NCBI RefSeq assembly: GCF_000003815.2
Contig: NC_049988.1
Location: forward strand, 9,245,900 to 9,309,899
Direction of reading: 5' to 3'
Length of the DNA: 64,000 bases
From: Branchiostoma floridae
Lineage: Eukaryota > Chordata > Leptocardii > Amphioxiformes > Branchiostomatidae
Shown here piece by piece: positions 376 to 63,128 of this stretch; position 1 is the stretch's first letter, and each line of letters opens with the position of its first letter. The notes below the pieces were generated by a model. The model was not told the DNA's origin. It did no database searches and was given only the letters and a program-made list of their open reading frames with translations. The translations under genes and the position numbers were made by a program.

Positions 376-1856
376 TGCGGAGGAGGAGGGAGCCACAGGA
401 CCTGAGCTGACCCCAGAGATGGTGAACGCTCAGTTCAGCACCAGTCTGGAACAGATCCCAGAGGAACCTGCCAAACTGGAAGGGTGGGTACAGTTTAGTC
501 TCTACCAGACCGACTAAGCTGGCTGTTATAGGGAGAATAATTTGCCAGGAGAGTTTTGGTACCAGAGTGACTATTGTCCATATAGCTAGTAGTTGTTATT
601 GGTTGCCATACATTGTACCTTGTGTGATTGTAGAGCAATAAAATTCATTCATTCATTTCCACTGTATTTATTTTTAATTATTGACTAACCTAAAACATGT
701 ACACGTACACTGTTGCAGGTCTGAGTTCCCCCATGCAGGAAAACTGCCCTCTACAAACAACCCAGTATCAGCTGCAGGCCCTATCACCAGGTGGGAAGAT
801 TTCTATCTTAGTTCCTATCATCTAGTACCGAATTAGTTTTCACGTCCTGACAAGGAGAAACAAAAGCCAACTTGAATTGGTAACCAAACAGTTTCATTGT
901 AATATTGCCTTAAAAACAACTGTTTTTTTAGTGCTTAAATGCTCATCAGGCTAAAGTATCCTTATAATATTACTATTATGATGATAGCTAAAACCTGATG
1001 CCACTTCTTGTTTTCTGCATGTGGCTATATTTTTGTTGGCCAGGCTGTATTTTGTGTGTTTAAGCTGTTATTGTGCCATTTCTGACAGTTTTCCATTTGT
1101 TGTTTTCTGTGTCACCATGCCATTCGTGATATTTGTTCTCTGTGTCATTGTGCATTCCTGACAGTTTTTCTTCTGTATCACTGCGCCATTCCTGATACTA
1201 GTGATAGTTTTTCTCAATGTTACTGTGCCATTTCTGACAGTTTTCTGTCTGTTGTTTTCTGTGTCACTGTGCCATTCCTGATAGTTGTTCTCTGTGTCAC
1301 TGTGCCATTCCTGACAGTTGTTCTCTGTGTCACTGTGCCATTCCTGACAGTTGTTCTCTGTGTCACTGTGCCATTCCTGACAGTTGTTCTCTGTGTCACT
1401 GTGCCATTCCTGACAGTTGTTCTCTGTGTCACTGTGCCATTCCTGACAGTTGTTCTCCATATCACTGTGCCATTCCTGACAGTTTCCCATCTGTCTGTTG
1501 TTCTCTGTGTCACTGTGCCATTCCTGATAGTTTTCTGACTGTTGTTCTCTGTGTCACTGTGCCATTCCTGACAGTTTCCCATCTGTCTGTTGTTCTCTGT
1601 GTCACTGTGCCATTCCTGACAGTTTCCCATCTGTCTGTTGTTCTCTGTGTCACTGTGCCATTCCTGATAGTTGTTCTCTTTGTCACTGTGCCATTCCTGA
1701 CAGTTTCCCATCTGTCTGTTGTTCCCCAGGGAACAGCGTGAGCAGGAGTTAGAGCTGTATCTCCAGCAGAGGTACAACAGGCTGGGCTCGCGGGTTCAGA
1801 CCAAGGTGGACGACATGGAGCGCCTGGTCACCAACAAGGACCTACTGCTGAAATAG
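376..1856 (+). CDS. 3' part of an unidentified gene (last three coding exons)
   Basis: Three phase-compatible exons (376-483, 719-790, 1730-1856) join into about 100 residues ending at TAG 1854-1856; the 5' part lies outside the window. The encoded tail begins AEEEGATGPELTPEM, passes a proline/serine-rich linker, and ends in a charged, probably helical segment (EQREQELELYLQQRYNRL ... DDMERLVTNKDLLLK) that looks like a coiled coil. All three junctions have AG acceptors and GT donors, and the carry-over phases match (2, 2). I do not recognise the family and assign no function. The last intron is largely a minisatellite that reaches the acceptor at 1728-1729. ABCF2 starts downstream on the same strand. 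Confidence is good that this is a real gene end and low on identity. Confidence 0.75.
498..565. repeat. Fragment of a dispersed repeat (LSS-intron type)
   Basis: The stretch beginning GTCTCTACCAGACCGACTAA and running through the GGGAGAATAATTTGCCAG core closely resembles the left part of the repeat at 47424-47500 and the middle of 27425-27690. It lies in an intron of the upstream gene, starting just after the donor of exon 376-483. Only the left portion is recognisable here. Confidence 0.6.
1070..1729. repeat. 33/48-bp minisatellite abutting a splice acceptor
   Basis: Tandem copies of a unit of about 33 bp contain TGTCACTGTGCCATTCCTGA and end in CAG. Some copies carry an extra 15-bp TTTCCCATCTGTCTG segment, giving 48 bp. 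The left part (about 1070-1260) is more divergent. The right end merges into the polypyrimidine tract and AG of the final exon of the upstream gene. Because the units are multiples of three, long repetitive open frames appear on both strands; these are a by-product of the repeat, not genes. Confidence 0.9.
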
Positions 1857-7700: not shown

Positions 7701-10700
7701 CTTCTCAGGAGGCTGGCGGATGAGAATAGCACTGGCTCGAGCCCTGTTTGTCAAACCTTCCCTCCTCATGCTGGACGAACCCACCAACCACCTGGACCTG
7801 GACGCCTGCGTCTGGCTGGAGGAAGAGCTCAAGAAGTAAGCATGTTAGATGTCTTAGACTAACCATTCCTGGTAGTAATGTTTGTTAGGTAGTAATGTTA
7901 GCTATATACATCAGGGCACTCCAGCCATCACTGAACAGAGACGGTTCCTGGCACATTTGACCAATTGCTGACCTGACGTATCTGCAAGATCACGTGTTGA
8001 TGAGATCACGTGTCTGTAACTCTTGTGAGTTTCATCCTAAAGTGATTGGTCATCAGTATTGATCATGTGTGCGTGAGTATGCGTGTGCGTATGTGTGTTT
8101 TGGACCTACATGAGGGGTGTGAAGTCTACCATCTCTGTTTGCCTTCTGGTAACTTTGCTATATCATGGAGTCAGTAAATACCTGAGTTAACATACACCAA
8201 AGGAATACCTGTTTGCATCAACAAGACGATAAAACAAAAAAAACTGTGATACCATTGTAAAACCAAACAATCTAACATGTATTCCCAATTCTTTATCCAG
8301 CTACAAGAGAATCCTGGTGCTGGTGTCCCACTCCCAGGACTTCCTGAACGGTGTCTGTACCAACATCATCCATGTGAACAACTGTAAACTGCACTACTAT
8401 GGTGTAAGTACTGTACCAACATCATCCATGTTAACAACTGTAAACTGCACTACTATGGTGTTAGTACTGTACCAACATCATCCATGTTAACAACTGTAAA
8501 CTGCACTACTATGGTGTAAGTACTGTACCAACATCATCCATGTTAACAACTGTAAACTGCACTACTATGGTGTAAGTACTGTACCAACATCATCCATGTT
8601 AACAACTGTAAACTGCACTACTATGGTGTAAGTACTGTACCAACATCATCCATGTTAACAACTGTAAACTGCACTACTATGGTGTAAGTACTGTACCAAC
8701 ATCATCCATGTTAACAAATGTAAACTGCACTACTATGGTGTAAGTACTGTACCAACATCATCCATGTTAACAACTGTAAACTGCACTACTATGGTGTAAG
8801 TACTGTACCAACATCATCCATGTTAACAACTGTAAACTGCACTACTATGGTGTAAGTACTGTACCAACATCATCCATGTTAACAACTGTAAACTGCACTA
8901 CTATGGTGTAAGTACAGTACCAACATCATCCATGTTAACAACTGTAAACTGCACTACTATGGTGTAAGTACAGTCTTTTGTCTCCAGTTAGCATACAATA
9001 TGCTTCCCTAGGAAAAAATACTTTTCATGTAGTATTCTTATACTGTAAATCCATTTATTTTCATGGGGCTTAATTTTATGACAAAAGGGAAAATGAGGTT
9101 TTTGCTGTGCTGTTATACAGTAGTAATACATTAGAAACATGTATTGTCATTGTCGTGAACTTGAGAAGAAGTTAACGATGGTGTGCATAGTCCAGTAGTT
9201 AGAGGCCTTGACTCTGGAACTAGGAGCCGTGCGTTCGATTCTGGCTGTGTCGCTCACACGACATGCACGCTACCGGAAAGGGTTGCAGTCCTTCGGATGG
9301 GACGTCAAGCCATTGTCCACTGTTCATTGTGCTTGCCGAAAAGAGCTTGGGGAATTTCCCAGCACATTGAACCTGTAAATACTGTACATAGCGTCTTTCA
9401 GTAGTATGTAAGACAAACCTAGTATGTGACATTCTAATAACCTATGTAAGAGACAGTATCATGGTAAGCACAATATTCTTTATATTCAAATTGATGGCCT
9501 GCATCCCTGTGACCTGACCTTTAATCTTTGACCTTTAGGGTAACTACGACGTGTACGTGCGTACACGGCTGGAACAGCTGGAGAACCAGGCGAAGCGGTA
9601 CAAGTGGGAACAGGACCAGATCAAACACATGAAGGTGAGGTCTTACTTCACCTGTATGTCACTTGTCCTGCACAGTTTCATTATCCACTCCTCTTTCCGA
9701 GTTTGTTTGTGTTGGCGTGTGTCTGTAGTTGTTTGTCAGTAGAGTGTCAGGAAGTCTTGTCGTAAATGCAAGAAGTAGAGGAGGTAGAACTAGGTAGAAC
9801 TAGAACATTTGGTATGTGTTTGTTTTTTTACCATTTTCTGTTGTACTTTCAGAGTTACATTGCCAGATTCGGCCACGGTAGTGCCAAGCTTGCCAGACAA
9901 GCACAGAGCAAAGAGAAGACCCTGAAGAAAATGGTGGACGGAGGACTGACAGAAAAAGTTGTTCTAGATCAGGTGAGAGTCTTTTTATCCCTAGTAGTTG
10001 AAGTTTAACTGTTGGAGGGTGTTGGAGAATTGTTATAATAAGTTGTAAAAGATTTTCAAAGCCATACTACAATAACATCATTTCCAAAGCCAGAATCCAG
10101 TATTCAATATTTTGACTGCGGTGTTTGAATTACATTTTGTGGAAGCGCGCCTGATACAAATAGAAGCCCGTGGGGTGCCTTAGGTTACAGATTGGTCCTG
10201 AGTACTCATATTGAATGTTAATATTACAGCATATGCATGACATTCTGAAGCGGGTTTAGAATATAAGTTAACTGAAATGGTTTGTGTTCCCCCCACAGAC
10301 GCTGACCTTCTACTTCCCTGAATGCGGAAAGGTCCCGCCGCCCGTCATGCAGGTTCAGGATGTCAGCTTCAGATACGCCGATGATCTGGTAAGTCATCAT
10401 CATCATTGTCATCTTGTCACCTAGTCTCGTGAGGGCGTGTCAATAACTTTGACAAATTGTCTTGGTAACATTGGAAAGTTGCTCATTTTTACTATGGTCT
10501 GCAGCTTAGAAAGTGATTTACCAGTACTAGCGATGATGAAAATGTTGATGCTGCATTCTGTATTTAGCGAAATGCTAAGTGCTACTTCTTTCTTTCCCTA
10601 AACACAAGCAATGTTACAGTAAGAAAACCACATCTTTGCTAAGCATAGATAACTTTCGTACTATTTCTTGACTACATACAGGTATGGCACTTTTATGTGT

Positions 10701-24800: not shown

Positions 24801-27800
24801 AATGATACGTTGATTTCGTGAGCACAACGCTCTATTATGTTTGAGCACCAAGTTCGGTTCATTTTCTTTTGTTTAACGCCTTGTATTGTAAACGTCGTTC
24901 AAAACAATGAAAATGACACAAACACAACAATTGAATAGATTTACACTTTGCTTGGCAGTTCATGGCGTTTAAATGCTTGAGTGAATAGTTACGTTACAAG
25001 CCTTTAAGACTAACACACGATATATTTTCCTTCTTTTGTTCTTTCCTCGTCATTTTTACCTATAGGAGGGGAAAACTTATTTGGGTCATTGGGTGATTTT
25101 ATAGTACTGTAGAAGCCTTCCTTTAACTCTGAATGTACGTTTACGGTAAACTGCCTTCTTCACAGAGTGTAAGATCCCCGGTATGGACATGGTGTTTGTA
25201 CTTGACGGCTCCGGTAGTGTCGGGGCGGACAACTTCGAGACGGTGAAAGACTTCGTGGTGTCTGTAGTGGACGGGTTTGAGATCGGACAGTCCCGTACCC
25301 GTATCGGTGTGGTACAGTACAGGTATGATGATGTATTATATACTATTCATTTTTCATCTCCGTGAAAGAGATTGTGTTACCGAAAACATAAAATTAACTT
25401 AGAAATTGAATTGAGTTTCATGGCTTTTGTATATATAGGTCTTGACTAAGCCAAAGTGATTGGATGTTTCTCCCCCCCCCCCTCCCCGACCCACTAGCAG
25501 CTCTCTTTTAAAATGTAGTCATTACCTTTGCCAGAATGGCTAAGGTTATGTTTTAGGCTTGTGGGTCTGTGTATCTGTCTGTGTGTGTGTGTGTGTGTTA
25601 ACAGCATAACTCGAGAAGCCTTGGATGGATCCCGATGATATTTGGTAGGTGGATAGGGGTCGGGAAAACGAAGGTCAAGTTCGATAATGGGCCCCCTAGC
25701 GGCTTGCTAAGGTACTGCAGCAGAACCTCAATTTTTGATATCTCGTGTTCTGGACATGCTGTGGTTATGATTTTTGAGTGGTAGGTAGCCCTTGGGGCAG
25801 AGAGTAAGTATTTTAGGTTTGGACCCCCTAGCGGCTTGTTTGGAACTGCAGTCGCCGATTTCCTTCCAAACTTTGGACGAGAATAACTCGAGAACGTGTT
25901 GATGGATCGTCACGATTTTTGGTTTGTAGATAGCCCAAGTAACAATGTACATTATGAAATACTAATTATGCAAATCAGTAACTTATTTGCATAATTAATG
26001 AGGAAAGTTTATAAAACCACTGCATTTCATGATAGGACTTTCAAACTTGTCACATATATAGATGAGAAAGAGAGAAATATCAATGCATATTAATTATGCA
26101 AATGATGACCTCATTTGCATAATTAATGAGAAAATATAAACGTGTTGACGGATCGTCATGATTTTTGGTATGTAGATAGCCAAAGGAAAGACTTACATGA
26201 TGGAATTCTAATTATGCAAATTGACAGCTAATTTGCATAATTAATGAGGAAAGTTTGTAAATCCACTGCATTCCTTTATAGGTCTTTCAAACTTGTCACA
26301 CTTGTAGCTGAGAAAGAAAGAAATATCTATACATATTAATTATGCAGATGATGATCTCATTTGCATAATTAATGGCAAAATATGAACATGTTGACGGATC
26401 GTCATGATTTTTGGTATGTAGATATCCTAAGTAAAAACTTTCATAATGAGATACTAATTATATAAATTAAATTTGCATAATTAATGCGGAAAGTTGATAA
26501 ATCCACTGCATTCCGTGATAGGACTTTCAAACTTGACACATATGGAACTGAGAAAGATGGCAGAGAGTAAGAGGTGTATGTTTGGGTCCGGTAAGGTCTT
26601 TTCTTGAACTGCAGGAGCCGGTTTAGTTTCCTACTTTGAAAGAGAATAAGTCAAGATGATGAAAGGGTCATCAAGGGATGAAAGGGTCATCATGATTTTT
26701 GGTATGCTGATAGCTTAAGTGATGCTTGATACAATTTGATATCATCATGTAAATAGGGATCTAATTTGTACAAGCAATGGCGAAATGTTATGAACCAACT
26801 CCGGGCATATAAAATAAAATGTAATGAGTAACACATTTATGTCTACAGACATCATTCTACATAACAAACCTGGTTTATTTGGCAAAGGTATGTGTTCGTG
26901 GAACTCTAGTTTTTTATGAGTAAAATGTTTCCGTTTCAGCACTTCATATTTTAGGGTTTGCGTCCTAGAACCTTTGTGTGGGAAAGGTAACGGTATCAAA
27001 TGATTCTAATTAACGTAGGCCACGTTGATTTGACAATATTTGGATGACATTCCCTGGGATCCGGATTAAAAAAAACGTTTTGCAAAAAGAAATTTTCTTC
27101 GTGGTCAGGAAGGTTGAACAAATGATTGAACTCACGGTGTATGGTATATTGAACAATAGATTCTTTATTTTTGTTCTCTCAAATCTTCTTCTTTGGGGGT
27201 TGACTTTGGCATTTTGCAACATATACACTATATATTTCGACAGTTTGGTCGAGACAATGTTTTAGGAAACGGTCGAAAATTGATGTGCTCCCGGATGTCA
27301 GTCATATAATCAACCCGGGCCTTATTTTGCTCTCAATTTCCTCCTGCAGCGACGAGGTACAGAATGAGTTCAACCTGACTGAGTATGGCAACAAAGCTGA
27401 TGTTCAGGTAGGACCTTGGTGTTCGCTAATCTCCAAGCAGATCTACCGGGGGCCAGACAGTAGCCTCTCCCAGACTGACTTCTCTGGTATCAATTTGTCA
27501 GGGGAGAATAATTTTCTAGGGGATTTTCATTTGTTATACTAGAGGATTTGGCAGGGAAAACATTTACATTAGCGTGGACTGACTCCCCTAATCAATTTCC
27601 CGATTTCTTGCCAACTTCTACGATCCCCGTACCCCATAGGAAGGTCTGGTGGAGGCTAGCCGGACAGTATCAAAAGCCCAAGGAGGTTTATCTTACTTAA
27701 CCTCCTCGTACTAAATACATGTACATGTACTATCCAATTGGCCCTCATGTATATGATATCAGCTAACCAGTATAGACGCATATGAAATTTTAGTCACCTT

Positions 27801-30599: not shown

Positions 30600-30795
30600 T
30601 GTCCGATTCAGTGGCAGTGCTGTTCGATTCAGCACTATCCGATTCAGTGCTGTCCGACTCGGTGCTGTCCGATTCAGTACTACCCGATTCAGTGCTTCCG
30701 ACTCAATGCTGTCCGATTAAGTGCTGCCTGATTTAGTGCTGTCCGAGTAATTTTAATACAGTCTGATTTCGTCCTGTCCGATTCAGTACCATCCA
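30600..30795. repeat. Degenerate ~15-bp tandem repeat in vWA gene 3' UTR
   Basis: About a dozen imperfect copies of AGTGCTGTCCGATTC start just after the TAG stop at 30584-30586. The likely polyadenylation signal is AATAAA at 31103-31108. Confidence 0.8.
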
Positions 30796-33280: not shown

Positions 33281-34645
33281 AGTCATTACCTTTGCCAGAA
33301 TGGCTAAGGTTATGTTTTAGGCTTGTGAGTCTGTCTGTCTGTGTGTGTGTTAACAGCATAACTCAAGAAGCCTTGGATGGATCCCGATAATATTTGGTAG
33401 GTGGATAGTTGTCGGGAAAACGAAGGTCAAGTTCGATAATGGGTCCCCTAGCGGCTTGCTAAGGTACTGCAGCAGAACCTCAATTTTTGATATCTCGTGT
33501 TCTGGACATGCTGTGGTTATGATTTTTGAGTGGTAGATAGCCCTTGGGGCAGAGAGTAAGTACTAGTAGTTTGGACCCCCTAGCGGCTTGTTTGGAACTG
33601 CAGTCGCCGATTTCCTTTCAAACTTTGGACGAGAATAACTCTAGAACGTGTTGATGGATCGTCACGATTTTTGGTATGTAGATAGCCCAGGTAACAATGT
33701 TCATTATGGAATACTAATTATGCAAATCAGCAACTAATTTGCATAATTAATGAGGAAAGTTTATAAATCCGCTGCATTTCATGATAGGACTTTCAAACTT
33801 GTCACATATATAGATGAGAATAGAGAAAAATCAATCCATATTAATTATGCAAATAGAGACCTCATTTGCATAATTAATGAGAAAATATAAACGTGTTGAC
33901 GGATCGTCATGATTTTTGGTATGTAGATAGTCACAGGGAAGACTTACATGATGGAATTCTAATTATGCAAATCGACAGCTAATTTGCATAATTAATGAGG
34001 AAAGTTTGTAAATCCACTGCATTCCTTTATAGGACTTTCAAACTTGTCACATTTGTAGCTGAGAAAGAAAGAAATATCTATACATATTAATTATGCAGAT
34101 GATGATCTCATTTGCATAATTAATGGCAAAATATGAACATGTTGACGGATCGCCTTTTTTTGGTATGTAGATATCCTAAGTAAAAACGTACATAATGAGA
34201 TACTTATTATATAAATTAACAATTTGCATAATTAATGCGGAAAGTTGATAAATCCACTGCATTTCGTGATAGGACTTTCAAACTTGACACATATGGAACT
34301 GAGAAAGATGGCAGAGACTAAGAGGTGTTTGTGTGGGTCCGGTAATGTCTTTTCTTGAACTGCAGAAGCCGGTTTAGTTTCCTACTTTGAAAGAGAATAA
34401 GTCAAGAAGGGATGAAAGGATCATCATGATTTTTGGTATGCTGATAGCTTAAGTGATGCTTGATACAATTTAATATCATTATGTAAATAGGGATCTAATT
34501 TGTATAAGCAATGGCGAAATGTTATGAACCAACTCCTGGCATATAAAATAAAATGTAATGAGTAACACATTTATGTCTACAGACATCATTCTACATAACA
34601 AACCTGGTTTATTTGGCAAAGGTATGTGTTCGTGGAAATCTAGTT
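33281..34645. repeat. 1.4-kb octamer-rich repeat, copy B (intergenic)
   Basis: Second copy of 25518-26905 in direct orientation, collinear throughout with scattered substitutions and small indels. It ends about 260 bp before the orphan Reeler exon. A fragmentary relative (ATTAATTATGCAAAT with TTTTGGTATATG nearby) appears at about 36975-37050. Confidence 0.9.
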
Positions 34646-36058: not shown

Positions 36059-36422
36059 NNNNNNNNNNNNNNNNNNNNNNNNNNNNNNNNNNNNNNNNNN
36101 NNNNNNNNNNNNNNNNNNNNNNNNNNNNNNNNNNNNNNNNNNNNNNNNNNNNNNNNNNNNNNNNNNNNNNNNNNNNNNNNNNNNNNNNNNNNNNNNNNNN
36201 NNNNNNNNNNNNNNNNNNNNNNNNNNNNNNNNNNNNNNNNNNNNNNNNNNNNNNNNNNNNNNNNNNNNNNNNNNNNNNNNNNNNNNNNNNNNNNNNNNNN
36301 NNNNNNNNNNNNNNNNNNNNNNNNNNNNNNNNNNNNNNNNNNNNNNNNNNNNNNNNNNNNNNNNNNNNNNNNNNNNNNNNNNNNNNNNNNNNNNNNNNNN
36401 NNNNNNNNNNNNNNNNNNNNNN
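36059..36422. other. Assembly gap (364 N)
   Basis: Run of N of non-round length, preceded by a TA microsatellite (about 35985-36003). It may hide sequence relevant to the orphan Reeler exon. Open frames crossing it are artefacts. Confidence 1.
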
Positions 36423-41627: not shown

Positions 41628-51379
<9,752 letters not shown>

Positions 51380-51848: not shown

Positions 51849-54800
51849 ATGCTTGTGGAAATGGGTAACCTACTGCTGGAGAACGCGTTAGAGACAGTAC
51901 AAGAGCTCGGTTCTGGCACTGTGGCGCTGACAACGATCGTCGTGCTGTTGGGTGTCACGTACTTCGGCAGGCAGTTCGTCAGCAGTGTCGGCAAGGCAGA
52001 GGTAAGGGACAGTTCATTTGATCCATCATGTAGGGTTTGGTGTGAGAAAATCATGAGAAGAAATGAAGATATGTCGCCTTAAACTTTAATGTAAAATGTA
52101 ACAAAAGAGATCGTTAACTAGTTATAGAATTATAGTAATAATTTCATAGGGACAGTCCATTACTGTAATACTGGGATAGGTTTGGGTTGCTGCTATTTGG
52201 CATCTGAAAACTTGTACAATGTATATTGAATTTGAACGCTTGTTCTTCGTGTTTGTATGTTTCAGAAGTTGCCACCTGTAGTGCCTCACACTATCCCAAT
52301 ACTTGGTCATGGTTACAACTTCTACAAGAACCCCATCGGATTTCTTGAGGAGGCATACAAGAAGGTAACGTTAGCTTGTTATACCTCAATCACTTATACC
52401 AAGGAGGATAACCTCCTTGCTTATACAATTACTGTTGTATGTACATTAAAAGAATGACATGTTCCTTTAAAAATTGAGACTAATGTTATGAGTTAAGTTA
52501 TGACCTACTTAGATATTTGCAACTTTTTATTTGACTGTTGTTGGAAAGTCTTTGTCAACAAGTACTGGGTATTTGTCTTAAACTTTTATCTTACTGTTAC
52601 TTTGTGCTCTAAATTACTGTTAGTATGTCAGCAAACTGTTTTTTTTTCTCCTACACCTTTCCAGTATGGCCCAGTCTTCACCATCACCATGGCAGGGTCA
52701 AAGTTCACATACTTGGTAGGGTCTGACGCAGCAGCGACTCTGTTCAACAGTAAGAACGAGGACCTGAATGCTGAGGAGGTGTACTCACGCCTTACCACAC
52801 CTGTCTTCGGCAAGGGTGTGGCCTATGATGTTCCCAACCCTGTAAGTTGAAGAGACTTTATTGATGATTTCACTCTCACTCAGTCACTAACCGGGATAGC
52901 GTCCGTTGTTCCCTGTCTTGCAAGGGTTAGACATTTGCATGAAGTCATTTCGGTCTGATTGCTGATTTCCATCTTGCAAGTCCAGTTTTCTAATATGGAT
53001 TCTAATCCAGATTTCTTCTGTACAAATCACTCACTCATTTACACACACTCACTATCCGGTTTAGCGTCCGTTTTTTTCTGTCTTACAAGGGTTGGACGTT
53101 GTTCAGGTCTCATAACTGATCTCCATCCTCCTAATGCCCGGTCCCCAACGGCACTACCTTATGGGGCCCTGCTGTCCCAGGCCCTACCTACGGGTATTAT
53201 GATTGTCGCCACAAACAAGCTGTCAACCAATCAGAGAACAGGCCTTCCTTGGGCTTGTTGTTGTCGCAAGCTGTCTCGCAAAGGCCGCTGGGAAGCTATC
53301 AGCCAATCATGTTACGTATTACCATGACTTTGTTTGCTCACCATGCCAACGCCCGATCCCCAACGGCTGACTGCCCATATAAGGGAAAGCTCATTAGTAT
53401 TCATAAGCAAGGCACCCCTAATAACCGAATACTGTGGCTGATTTGTCAGGGTTGATATCATAGGCTTTGCCATGATTGTCAACCCTGAGTGTGAGGGTGC
53501 TGATCTCCAGCTGCCTCTGTCAAAGGGGTTGGTCTTTTGGAGGTTCAGTTTGCGAGTATCTTCCTTGTCATTACAAATAACGCCAATGATCGACATTATT
53601 ATACCATTAATGTCAATCCTTTTTTTTTATATTTGTGGCTCTTCTTTAAACTATCAGTGTAAATAATAAATGTAATAAATTGTAATGTTTCAGGTGTTCC
53701 TTGAGCAGAAGAAAATGTTCAAGACCGGACTGAACATCGCCAGGTTTCGCACTCATGTCTCACTGATAGAGGAGGAGACTAAGGAGTACTTCAAACGGTG
53801 GGGAGATAGTGGGGAGAGGGGTAAGTCTACCATCAAGGATCCCCCCAACATTTCTACTCTTTCTTCTGGATGTTTTGTATCTTCTCTGGTATTCATTATC
53901 TGCTTGGTAGTGATTTAGTTTAGGGACATTTCAAAGGACAGGCTCTTAATGATTTTTGCTAAGTCTACCATCAGGGGATCCCTCCAAAACATTTCTCTTC
54001 TTTCCACTTGATATACATGTATTATATATTCTGTGATATACCGACCTATCTATACCTACCGATATATCTATCTATTAAATGCTCAGCAGTATTAAGTGTA
54101 AACATTTAAAAAAGGTCTGAGACTTCACTTTTCATCTGTAACTTTATCTTGTGTTTGATGTTATGTTTTTTACATCCACTACAGATCTGTTTGAGGCCCT
54201 GGCACAGCTGACCATCCTTACAGCAAGCAGATGTCTACATGGTAAGTTTTCATTGGTATCACCTATACAAAAAACTTGCCACTAACTGAAATAGCAGTGT
54301 TCCATCTTTAACTCACAACATTGACGCTCATAATATTATGTCTTGTGACTGGCTTAATAAACATGTATGAAATTATTTCATTTCATAAGTAATTTCTGTG
54401 TTGTGATAGGTAAAGAGGTCCGTTCTATGCTGCATGAGGGGATAGCACAGCTGTATGCTGATCTGGACGGAGGTTTTACTCAGATGGCATGGCTGCTCCC
54501 AGGCTGGCTGCCCCTCCCCAGTTTCAGGTAATAAAATCATGTACATGTAGCTAATAGTACAATGGATATAGCTAATACTACAATGGTAATGGTGAAATAT
54601 TCCTATGTAATATCTGTAAGTTGTCTGGGTTACTATCAATTTTTCTTCTAACAGTGACTGTTTATTAAAGGTAGAGAACGTACCTCCAAATTTTCAATGT
54701 CTACCAGTACATCTTGTGTACTCTAGTTTTTGTCTTGATTTTTCCTCCAACAGTTGCCTAAATATGCACGATACATATATTTTGATTTGACTAATAAGAT

Positions 54801-57800
54801 AAAACATATCCCCCAAAGCCTGGACTGTAGTCAAATTCAATCTTGATACCTGTTTAGTTAAAAAAAATTGATAGTAGATTACAATGTTTCACAGGAAGAG
54901 AGACAGAGCCAACAGGGAAATGAAGAAAGTCTTCAAAAAGGTACCTCTTTTTTTTATTACCACCTATCTACTTTGTTCTTTTGGTACAATTTTCTGAAAA
55001 ATCAGTGAGATTCTGAATATACTTACCTTATATATATATATATGGCCTCCTTCTGTCAATATTGACCATGGTAAAATTCTTATTGATTAACCTTACTGCC
55101 GTAGATTATCCAACAAAGAAGGGAGTCTGGAGACTGTGATGATGACATGTTGCAGACCCTCATGGAGTCCACCTACAAGTAAGGTCACAAAATCACTCCT
55201 GCCATACGAGCGATCGCGATGATGTCACCGTGACGCAGTGGTAGGCAAAAAGCAGGTGTTTGGCAAAAGATTGATTTACATATTAACCAGTAATTTGAGT
55301 CGCTAATTTGAATATCAATTTTTTATCCAATCTACTGATGTCCTGGTAGGCAACAACCGTCCAATACCCCGGATATAAACAACAACAGCAATCGCTCGTA
55401 TTCTTCAACACAGACACTGCTGTGTTGCCAACAAACAAGTCTTTAAATTAATGGTAGTTGATAGTCAAGAAAGGTTTAGGAGTTAACCACTTTTGTAAAA
55501 GTTGGCCGGCACCAAAGTGCAATGGCTGAAAGACTGATGATATCAAGAACATCATTCAATATGTGGTAAGATTTGATAAGACTGGCAGGTAGCGCCCCCC
55601 AACACGATACCCTTGAACTGCAGATAAGAAAACTGTTTTGCATATTTGTGGCAGGGATGGCAGACCCCTGACTGATGATGAGTGTGTGTATGTTTGTGGC
55701 AGGGATGGCAGACCCCTGACTGATGATGAGTGTGTGTATGTTTGTGGCAGGGATGGCAGACCCCTGACTGATGATGAGTGTGTGTATGTTTGTGGCAGGG
55801 ATGGCAGACCCCTGACTGATGATGAGTGTGTGTATGTTTGTGGCAGGGATGGCAGACCCCTGACTGATGATGAGTGTGTGTATGTTTGTGGCAGGGATGG
55901 CAGACCCCTGACTGATGATGATTGTGTGTATGTTTGTGACAGGGATGGCAGACCCCTGACTGATGATGATTGTGTGTATGTTTGTGGCAGGGATGGCAGA
56001 CCCCTGACTGATGATGAGTGTGTGTATGTTTGTGGCAGGGATGGCAGACCCCTGACTGATGATGATTGTGTGTATGTTTGTGACAGGGATGGCAGACCCC
56101 TGACTGATGATGATTGTGTGTATGTTTGTGACAGGGATGGCAGACCCCTGACTGATGATGAGTGTGTGTATGTTTGTGACAGGGATGGCAGACCCCTGAC
56201 TGATGATGAGATAACGGGGATGATGATTGGTCTCCTGATGGCCGGTCAGCACACCTCGTCCACTACCAGCACCTGGATGGGCTTCTTCCTGGCCAAACAC
56301 AAGGACATCCAGGCCAGAGCTTACCAGGAACAACTGGACATCTGTGGAGAGGACCTGCCACCTCTTAACTATGATGATGTAAATATTCTATTATTAGACA
56401 CTTAAGAACCAGGAAGCCCTTGGAAATTTGAAAATCTAATTTCATATATGTGCATTCATATCAACTTGTGTCTGATAAAGTTTAACTTGTCAACTAAAAG
56501 AGCATATAGCTCTCCATATCATGGTATAGTAACTTTCGTACTTGATCAGATAGTTAACTCCAAGTTTATTTGATTTGATTTGTCAACTTTCTGGTATTTT
56601 TTAAAATTCATGACTAGTGTTTTCTTAGTACTAACATTACTACTTTCTGCAGGAAGATTGAGTTTTTAAGTGGTTTATTGATAAGCAATAAAAGTTACAA
56701 AGTTACAAAAGTAATTTCATGAACTAGTTCTCAGTTTGAGATTGAAGACTTCGATGTAGCCCTGACTCTTCATGAACAGTATCATCCTTCCCCTACAGCT
56801 GAAAGAGATGGCCCTGTTGGACAAGTGCCTGGCAGAAACCCTGCGCCTGCGCCCCCCGATCATGACCATGATGAGGATGTGCAAGACCCCCCAGCAGGTC
56901 AAAGGTTACACCATCCCGGTCGGCCATCAGGTGTGCGTGTCTCCGACTGTCAATCAGAAACTGGAAGACACCTGGGAGGAGGCTGGGACTTGGAACCCTA
57001 ACAGGTCAGCTTGTTTCACTGGTGTAGTCACCTGTATCTGTATCTATATAGCTGGTATAACCACTCTTCAGCATTATACACCAGCTCTAAATGCCTACTG
57101 TATCTGTTGGCAAATAGTTCTACACATGTACTTTAATAGTTCTAGGAAAATAGGAATTTTTAAAACATCAATCCTTGGTTGATGACTGTGGTACTTGAAG
57201 GCATGACTATTTCTTGTTCTTTCCTGAGCTGGTATAAGAGCCTTTAGTAGTCAGCAAGACATACAGATTCTCAATGCCTTGTAGCAGGTTTCAAAGTTGT
57301 TGAAGTTTCATAGTTTATTTATGCCATGTGTAAACTGGGGATGGCTCACTCTACATTTCATCTGCTTTAACAGGATGCTTTGAAAAGTCTTGTTCTATCT
57401 TCTTAGATTTGATTTTGTTGGGTCCTATTCTCTTTAATACAAATAAATACCCATACTGTGTCTTGAATATGTCGTTATCTTATCTTAGGTTTCTGGAAGG
57501 GAATGCCAGTACAGGGAAATTCTCCTACGTGCCATTTGGTGCAGGTAAGTTGATGAACACTCATTACGACATTGACTTATGTCCTATCTGTGGCTGACGT
57601 CGGAGGTTTAAAAAAAAAGACACTTAAAGCAGCTTTCAGACTTAAAATATTGTTTTAATTCTTTGTACTATACATGAGGTAAATGAATCATAATCCAGAG
57701 ATATCTAGAATATTTTGCAGTACTATAGATACAACTGTTGGACATTTGAAGGGGGGATGGATACAAAAAGCTGTGACTCACTAGTGTACAAAATTGTTAC

Positions 57801-58087
57801 AACTTTGTTGATATACTGTAACCATAAAGTGGTTTCTGCTATCTCAGTCATAGAATATAACTGATTCTCCTTGTAGTATGGTTATATTTGAATTGTTATT
57901 TACTGTTTACCCAGGCCGCCACCGCTGCATTGGTGAGAACTTTGCGTACGTCCAGATCAAGACCATTTGGGCAGTGCTGCTGAGAGAGTTCGAGTTTGAA
58001 CTGATCGACGGACACTTCCCTTCCATCAACTTTGAAACCATGATCCATACCCCATCACAAGCCATCATCCGTTACAAGAAACGATAA
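51849..58087 (+). CDS. CYP51: Lanosterol 14-alpha-demethylase (cytochrome P450 51)
   Basis: Exons 51849-52001, 52266-52364, 52665-52841, 53694-53820, 54185-54241, 54410-54527, 54895-54940, 55105-55178, 56183-56378, 56799-57004, 57489-57544, 57915-58087 give 493 aa (human about 500). This ER-anchored P450 removes the 14-alpha methyl of lanosterol, the step after LSS. The N-terminal membrane anchor is [15 protein letters not shown]. The I-helix is [11 protein letters not shown], the ExxR motif is ETLR, and the heme-cysteine loop [11 protein letters not shown] is split by intron 11. CYP51 hallmarks include [10 protein letters not shown] and [15 protein letters not shown] use the last of twelve possible exon 9 acceptors because it restores the normal family sequence. 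Start 51849 is chosen over an in-frame ATG at 51723, whose extra residues look non-coding. Likely polyA signal at 58771-58776. Confidence 0.97.
52401..52419. mobile_element. Tiny palindrome between near-perfect 8-bp repeats (CYP51 intron 2)
   Basis: AAGGAGGATAACCTCCTTG lies between CTTATACC (52393-52400) and CTTATACA (52420-52427). Similar palindromes without checked duplications occur at about 27682-27710, 48805-48825 and 51107-51125. Confidence 0.6.
52870..53120. repeat. Local direct duplication in CYP51 intron 3
   Basis: Two diverged copies of a block of about 90 bp (TCACTCAGTCACTAACCGGG... and CACACACTCACTATCCGG...), each with AGCGTCCGTT, CTGTCTT and CAAGGGTT followed by a TCAT/TGATTTCC-type end. 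The second copy continues into unmatched sequence. Confidence 0.5.
55204..55401. mobile_element. Foldback element with ATACGAGCGATCGC ends (CYP51 intron 8)
   Basis: Left end ATACGAGCGATCGCG, right end GCAATCGCTCGTAT, with inverted internal GGTAGGCAA modules. A second copy of one end, including the CCCGGATGTAAAC-type segment, starts at about 63656. No clear target duplication. Confidence 0.7.
55655..56210 (+). repeat. 48-bp x12 repeat of the CYP51 intron 8 / exon 9 junction
   Basis: Twelve units of exactly 48 bp start at 55655 + 48k (last at 56183). Each has a 28-bp exon-start part encoding DGRPLTDDE or DGRPLTDDD and a 20-bp intron-end part finishing in CAG. There are no stops: read through, each unit encodes a 16-residue block such as [16 protein letters not shown]. 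Minor variants (GAG/GAT at the exon edge, GGCAG/GACAG at the acceptor) distinguish copies. The antisense strand is also open because the unit is a multiple of three. Confidence 0.97.
57030..57100. repeat. Dispersed repeat family, copy 3 (truncated)
   Basis: CTGTATCTGTATCTATATAG then CTGGTATAACCACTCTTC and a TATACACCAGCTC end, matching 46249-46340 and 48584-48672. It starts about 25 bp after the donor of CYP51 exon 10. Confidence 0.6.
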
Positions 58088-62000: not shown

Positions 62001-63128
62001 GTTTGGCAGCTTCTTCAAACCAGGCTGCAAACTGCACAATGGGGTCACGGGACACCAGCTGGTCCTCTGTGTAAACCTCCTCATTTCCCTGCAAGAGAAA
62101 TGTTGGTTAACCCTCTCTCTACTACCTATTAAACCCCATAACCCCCCAAAATGGTACCAATGAGCTACCTTANNNNNNNNNNNNNNNNNNNNNNNNNNNN
62201 NNNNNNNNNNNNNNNNNNNNNNNNNNNNNNNNNNNNNNNNNNNNNNNNNNNNNNNNNNNNNNNNNNNNNNNNGTCCCTCAGATAGGATGTTAGATGGTCC
62301 TGTGTTTGATGAGAGACTACACCTCAAGCACGTTTAAAAACCAACCATGCTTATCGAAAAGACTATGGGTCTTCCCCAACTTGTGATTGTTTCAAAACCT
62401 ACATTTACAGTCCTATGGCCACACATGGGGCAATAAGCTCCTTCAGAGATCAGGACGCATGTGCGGCGACAGGGATTCTACATAATATGTACATAATACA
62501 TAAACCGCACGTTGACACTGCTTTGGTTAAATGAGAGAGAGGTCCGAGAGTGCGGTCAGCCCTTAGGCAGTAGGCCAAGGTATTGTTGTCGGATCGCCCG
62601 TGCTGAAGCACCCGGGTCGGTGTTCCGTGTGTGATCCAAAGAACCCGAGTGAAAGCGGAAAGTTCCGACGGCGAGTTCCGACAGATGTGGAAGGTACCCG
62701 AAGTGCGATTTTGCGACAAACGACGACTGAGGGCACGAACTCGGCACGCGCTGCACACGTCACCAAAAGACCATGTGGCCCCACCAACATCTCACAGGAC
62801 CTATGAGATAAGTGTGCCCGTGCTGCACATATTCTGATCTCTGTGAAAGGGGTTATTACAGTTGTATTGAGGTCACTCGAGTTTGCTCCTTTGCTTATAC
62901 ACTGTACAATCCACTAAAGGCATGTAACTGTAACCAAGGAGCTTTTATATCAGATATAAAAGCTCCTTGCTGTAACCTAAAACAAACCTTGTACGCCTTG
63001 CGCATTGCTGCCACGTTGATCCCGTTGGTGTCCACGGTGCTCGCCATCTTGGCTGTTGACAAGTAGAAGAAAGAGGGGGTTCGAGGAATTCCAGTGAGTA
63101 AGAAGCGAAGAGCGTGTCTAGAAAACAT
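59002..63128 (-). CDS. PNPO: Pyridoxamine 5'-phosphate oxidase
   Basis: Seven exons, 5' to 3': 63128-62988, 62088-61952, 61277-61178, 60898-60845, 60644-60516, 60103-60027, 59167-59002. They give 267 aa (human 261). The enzyme uses FMN and oxygen to convert pyridoxine or pyridoxamine 5'-phosphate to pyridoxal 5'-phosphate. Conserved blocks are complete: [90 protein letters not shown], and the terminal YERLSP. The N-terminus is basic and hydrophobic ([21 protein letters not shown]), possibly a mitochondrial presequence. A second Met (MASTVDTNG) could start a cytosolic form. The gene is tail to tail with CYP51. A 100-N gap lies in intron 1. Confidence 0.96.
59207..59623. mobile_element. hAT-like non-autonomous element, perfect 8-bp duplication
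   Basis: 417 bp with 12-bp perfect terminal inverted repeats TAGTGGTGCATA / TATGCACCACTA and flanking ACTGGCAG at 59199-59206 and 59624-59631. The interior has many GGTCCAAGTCCGGACTT-type inverted motifs, and no transposase. Eight-bp duplications and TAGTG-type ends are typical of the hAT superfamily. It lies in the last PNPO intron. Confidence 0.93.
62173..62272. other. Assembly gap (100 N)
   Basis: Exactly 100 N, the conventional placeholder for a gap of unknown size. It lies in PNPO intron 1 and does not touch an exon. Confidence 1.
62936..62969. mobile_element. Tiny near-perfect palindrome between perfect 8-bp repeats
   Basis: Arms AAGGAGCTTTTATATC and its near-complement around a 1-3 bp centre, lying between CTGTAACC (62928-62935) and CTGTAACC (62970-62977). 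It sits only about 10 bp from the donor of PNPO exon 1. Confidence 0.85.

Follow-up and report, generated by a model that had tools for sequence, protein, structure and literature searches.

A mirage-type minisatellite with twelve in-frame acceptors at exon 9 of the lancelet CYP51 gene

Lancelet genes carry mirages, minisatellite-like tandem duplications of exon-intron boundaries (PMC3087553). In the globin gene BflGb6 the unit combines the 3′ end of an intron with the 5′ part of exon 2, measures 150-160 bp and occurs in 6 and 3 units in two haplotypes, while BflGb9 has a 157-bp mirage and Adh3 one with units of 10-72 bp that shows somatic instability (PMC3087553). Further mirages are described in PGBD5, with units of 60 and 108 bp whose counts vary between assemblies, and cited for TnC (PMC3902484). 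What do such duplications do to splicing? In the globin study, Adh3 data and globin RT-PCR suggest that regular splicing is undisturbed, and Ebner et al. consider that mirage repeats with AG/GT signals could serve as cryptic splice sites (PMC3087553). In the JGI model of PGBD5 the repeats formed an exon of 57 residues, but the authors excluded it, finding no EST or mRNA support (PMC3902484). Two human systems are also comparable: UBC, in which splicing over a tandem array of splice sites is stochastic (PMC10809524), and genes of segmental duplications, which have internal tandem repeats at exon-intron boundaries (PMC2812944).

The window analysed here is a stretch of 64,000 nucleotides from the lancelet Branchiostoma floridae, in which the sterol enzyme gene CYP51 carries a 48-bp array at the start of exon 9. 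The repeat unit includes the exon-intron boundary and the host gene is a lancelet gene, its protein being 95% identical to that of B. belcheri and a BflGb6-like array lying in the same genome; the array is a new, well-formed member of the mirage class. We found no report of it in the open-licence literature; an Adh paper, Canestro 2002 (NAR), is cited in both lancelet studies (PMC3087553, PMC3902484). As in Adh3, BflGb6, BflGb9, TnC and PGBD5, the CYP51 units are tandem, highly identical and each span one splice junction; mirages occupy 5′ or 3′ junctions, and 48 bp is of the reported order (10-72, 60, 108 and 150-160 bp). What sets CYP51 apart from the published mirages is the gene itself, the twelve acceptors, a spacing that is a multiple of three and an open frame, such that a wrong choice of acceptor would lengthen the protein rather than truncate it, although the PGBD5 units are also multiples of three. 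As in UBC, tandem in-frame splice sites give the potential for proteins with variable repeats; the UBC sites, however, are AGGT, donor and acceptor within coding repeats (PMC10809524), whereas the CYP51 copies are presumably intronic. The segmental-duplication repeats share with CYP51 minisatellite units at boundaries, averaging about 30 bp and able to alter splicing, but they belong to recent human paralogs with transcript support, and the likeness to CYP51 is one of description (PMC2812944).

As a positive control we searched globin exons in the genome, and one of nine loci (L030) has a 158-bp array of 4.2 copies over its 3′ splice junction, overlapping the start of the matched globin exon and with acceptor-like copies 158 bp apart. 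By its description L030 is probably the BflGb6 mirage. In three other globin loci the repeats are confined to 2 copies of 20-25 bp and lie beyond the matched part.

The array at the intron 8 / exon 9 junction

The gene and its array comprise the following features.

51849-58087, plus strand: CYP51 (lanosterol 14-alpha-demethylase), 12 exons, 493 aa, from the gene model, Pfam, PDB and B. belcheri alignment
55179-56182, plus strand: intron 8 when it ends at the last acceptor, 1004 nt, donor CAA/GTAAGG, from the gene model
55645-56210, plus strand: acceptor-type mirage, a 48-bp minisatellite of 11.8 copies spanning the end of intron 8 and the start of CYP51 exon 9, from TRF and unit alignment
55655-56182, plus strand: eleven extra copies with acceptors ending at 55654, 55702 and so on to 56134, each adding one in-frame 16-residue block if used, from splice-join translation
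56183-56378, plus strand: true exon 9, which via the last acceptor (56182) yields the 493-aa protein, from splice-joining and B. belcheri alignment

The gene had been named CYP51 in a preliminary description made from the letters alone, and three comparisons agree: the product matches the Pfam P450 family, its best PDB match is the lanosterol 14-alpha-demethylase 8yqo (E 1.5e-226), and it aligns with a predicted B. belcheri CYP51 (P0001). All introns are GT-AG, exon 8 ends in TAC AA at 55178 and exon 11 ends at 57544. With the last acceptor, 493 of 493 residues align with P0001, 466 of them identical (95%), with no gaps and no insert at the junction, bearing out the earlier statement that only this acceptor gives the normal protein; P0001 is a prediction from another species and says nothing on the transcripts of the sequenced animal. 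A P450-family search of the genome gave 118 matches. CYP51 is adjoined by lanosterol synthase-like exons on the minus strand (48386-49872), which match PDB 1w6j (E 1e-19); their Pfam SQHop_cyclase matches are weak and below the cut-off, with none for the piece at 49693-49872. The two genes are apparently consecutive sterol-pathway enzymes arranged head to head.

TRF reports the array with 98% matches, 0% indels and a score of 1076. The string CAG followed by GGATGGCAGACC occurs 12 times, with exon-side starts at 55655, 55703 and so on to 56183 and every spacing exactly 48, and in each unit 20 bp come from intron 8 and 28 bp from exon 9. These results confirm twelve 48-bp units, each with the intron 8 acceptor and the first 28 bases of exon 9, as first described; the 28 bases match exactly in 8 of the 12 copies, and in the other four base 28 is T instead of G, which changes E to D. 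One further site varies, G/A at unit base 45, and both variable sites are nonsynonymous in the frame of the block (consensus DGRPLTDD[E/D]CVYVC[G/D]R). Because only these two unit positions vary, we infer that the array is young or homogenised. The upstream flank of copy 1 differs, with GTTTTGCATA in place of TGTGTGTATG. An Rfam scan of the window gave 0 matches at the gathering threshold.

Could the copy number be an error of assembly, by expansion or collapse? At 566 bp the array is longer than short reads, the genome draft contained an aberrant assembly of the BflGb6 mirage (PMC3087553), and the PGBD5 counts differ between assemblies (PMC3902484). Against this, the two variable sites make some CYP51 units distinguishable, the array is not at a gap (the N runs of the window are at 36059-36422 and 62173-62272), and the mirage class is established elsewhere in lancelets (PMC3087553, PMC3902484); we consider such an error very unlikely. 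The array DNA, searched against the 513-Mb assembly (431 contigs), had 1 match, its own locus on a 23.9-Mb contig. Its copy number probably varies between animals.

Twelve acceptors in one frame

Joining exon 8 to each of the twelve acceptors keeps the frame with 0 stops, adding 11 to 0 extra blocks and predicting proteins of 669 to 493 residues. The splice-join translation thus agrees with the preliminary description, in which every choice was in frame and stop-free and inserted 0 to 11 blocks of 16 residues with 2 Cys each. It had further raised the possibility that the twelve acceptors compete and yield graded isoforms of CYP51, with 0-11 of these blocks inserted just ahead of the I helix. 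The location suits this proposal: in an AlphaFold model of the insert-free P0001 (20 sequences, mean pLDDT 73.3) a helix at 274-280 is followed by a loop and a second helix at 291-322, and the exon 8-9 junction falls after K284, within the loop, where residues 281-290 average a pLDDT of 89. The insertion point does therefore lie ahead of the second helix, the two helices being taken as H and I.

That the frame is open says little about function, because chance gives open frames fairly often. No stop occurs in four of the array's six frames, namely all three on the minus strand and one on the plus strand. Mock 48-bp units, made by joining 20 bases of intron to 28 of exon, stay open at 7 of the 10 other CYP51 acceptors, or at 8 of 11 with exon 9 included. 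By our estimate (7/10 x 1/3) an in-frame open array would be expected in roughly a quarter of such duplication events, assuming that one in three unit lengths is a multiple of three. For these reasons we rejected a special meaning of the open frame as weak.

Which acceptor would the spliceosome choose? Our matrices for scoring splice sites are small, trained within the window on 18 hand-picked acceptors (from CYP51, an ABCF2-like gene and a gene at the left edge) and 16 hand-picked donors (from the first two). As acceptors, copies 2-12 score 5.08-6.22 and copy 1 reaches 9.65; real acceptors, scored leave-one-out, range from -2.03 to 9.37. The matrix is unspecific, in that the score of the last acceptor is equalled or exceeded by 201 of the 3758 other AGs that the window contains. 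Acceptor strength as the selector of the last copy was rejected, the upstream copies scoring within or above the range of real acceptors. Copies 2-12 are also alike in a further respect.

56148-56156, plus strand: branch-point-like CTGAC/CTGAT, whose A residues precede the last acceptor by 31 and 27 nt, a consensus match only

Both motifs lie 31 and 27 nt upstream in each of copies 2-12, in the exon-derived part of the preceding copy. The duplication itself may thus have turned copies 2-12 into self-contained acceptor modules, since their branch-point-like motifs come from the copy before. Upstream of copy 1 no YTNAY was found at 15-50 nt, where 14 of 18 real acceptors have one. That the copies score like real acceptors, and that 11 of 12 have branch-point-like motifs, speaks for graded isoforms; equally, upstream copies that look as usable as the last one count against regular use of the last acceptor.

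The choices differ in the exon they create. With the last acceptor exon 9 measures 196 nt, with the others 244-724, while CYP51 exons are 46-206 nt. Under exon definition the spliceosome pairs an exon's donor with its acceptor and favours an exon of normal size, which would favour the last copy, as it alone is joined to a normal-sized exon. A search of the open-licence literature on exon definition and the duplication of splice sites found no papers.

Units used as cassette micro-exons, or as seeds of new introns, were also considered and rejected: the best GT in the 48-bp unit scores 1.51 as a donor, against 3.88-11.97 for the 16 real donors on the small matrix. Lacking a donor-like site, the copies are unlikely to be micro-exons. 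The same scores separate CYP51 from UBC, in which the site of each unit is usable as both donor and acceptor (PMC10809524).

A mirror-image array and other repeats

A second mirage lies within 50 kb of the first, at a donor.

8355-8971, plus strand: 56-bp array of 11 copies over a donor (GGT/GTAAGTA) in an ABCF2-like gene, whose normal protein results from the first donor (8403) alone, from TRF and translation

The nearest solved structure to the product of this ABCF2-like gene is yeast ARB1 (E 9.1e-9). Use of any of donors 2-11 adds between 1 and 9 stops over the part translated, and a normal protein would therefore require the donor copy joined to the whole exon. The correct site in each array belongs to the copy at the exon-side end, the first in the donor array and the last in the acceptor array, and the ABCF2-like array is the mirror image of that in CYP51. 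Copies 2-11 of the ABCF2-like array have GTT in common at a place where the true exon copy reads GTG, and the boundary copy therefore appears to have escaped homogenisation.

The window also holds repeats of other kinds.

1072-1728, plus strand: 33/48-bp minisatellite that extends to the acceptor of the exon beginning at 1730, with no clear exon sequence in its units, from TRF

The best ungapped match of these units to the first 40 exon bases is 17/40; we counted 12 CTGACAG motifs at 1041-1729. Arrays at 25893-26557 and 33644-34308 have 2.7 copies each of a unit of about 245 bp, with 84% and 81% matches, and by eye their consensus units are apparently related. A TAG that may close a coding exon is followed, some 30 bp later, by a degenerate 15/45-bp repeat at 30615-30746. 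TRF on 20 x 10 kb of the genome at hand-chosen places gave 7 arrays with periods of 20-200 and at least 3.5 copies, counted irrespective of splice junctions; one sampled stretch (L017:3518-4386) has a 46-bp array of 18.9 copies with 97% matches.

Splicing outcome and significance

Among 181 fetched proteins (the best 120 of 2324 from a CYP51 search and 61 from a search with the exon 9 array) the block motif occurs in 0, and 117 match a loose pattern for the uninterrupted junction; the searches scored only those candidates with the most words in common, and each entry is a cluster at 90% identity (P0001 stands for 7). This absence, together with the ABCF2-like mirror case, the published mirages and the insert-free B. 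belcheri CYP51, favours use of the last acceptor. We infer the acceptor used, the reason for its use and the history of duplication as follows. A 48-bp segment straddling the junction, 20 bp of it intronic and 28 bp exonic, would have been tandemly duplicated and its units homogenised by minisatellite turnover. The spliceosome would pair the exon 9 donor with the acceptor on the whole exon (196 nt rather than up to 724 nt), removing the eleven upstream copies as part of intron 8, and the mRNA would chiefly encode the ordinary 493-aa enzyme. Judging from the DNA, the array is very probably a mirage whose other eleven copies normally leave with intron 8, with the ordinary enzyme mainly made, despite a JGI model of PGBD5 that did include mirage copies (PMC3902484).

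The graded series of protein lengths, by contrast, went unsupported. The UBC precedent of stochastic splicing over tandem sites speaks for it (PMC10809524), and so do the twelve open, in-frame choices, but the frame is of a kind that chance often supplies, the ABCF2-like array is of the same type yet destroys its frame, the published mirages are inferred to splice normally (PMC3087553, PMC3902484), and the block is missing from the proteins fetched. Competition among all twelve acceptors is thus very unlikely, and a biologically meaningful series, which the sequence would allow, seems highly improbable. Were the frame-neutral acceptors, variable in copy number, a genetic dial on CYP51, stochastic choice would give a ladder of 493-669 aa whose spread would shift with each animal's repeat number and possibly between its tissues; we regard this, too, as highly improbable. 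Rare use of upstream acceptors is a different matter: minor neutral isoforms could be tolerated since they are in frame, the acceptor scores of the copies are similar, and Ebner et al. allow for cryptic use of mirage AG/GT signals (PMC3087553). The 181 proteins without the block tell against such leakage, as would exon definition, which we hold to be possible but doubtful, and which can coexist with predominant use of the last acceptor.

The CYP51 array extends lancelet mirages to an essential sterol enzyme. Within 50 kb lie two mirages of opposite polarity, one at an acceptor and neutral to the frame, the other at a donor and destructive of it. The CYP51 and ABCF2-like arrays thus form a pair in which nature tests how one site comes to be chosen by the spliceosome from a dozen that are almost identical, and whether selection against mis-splicing limits such arrays.
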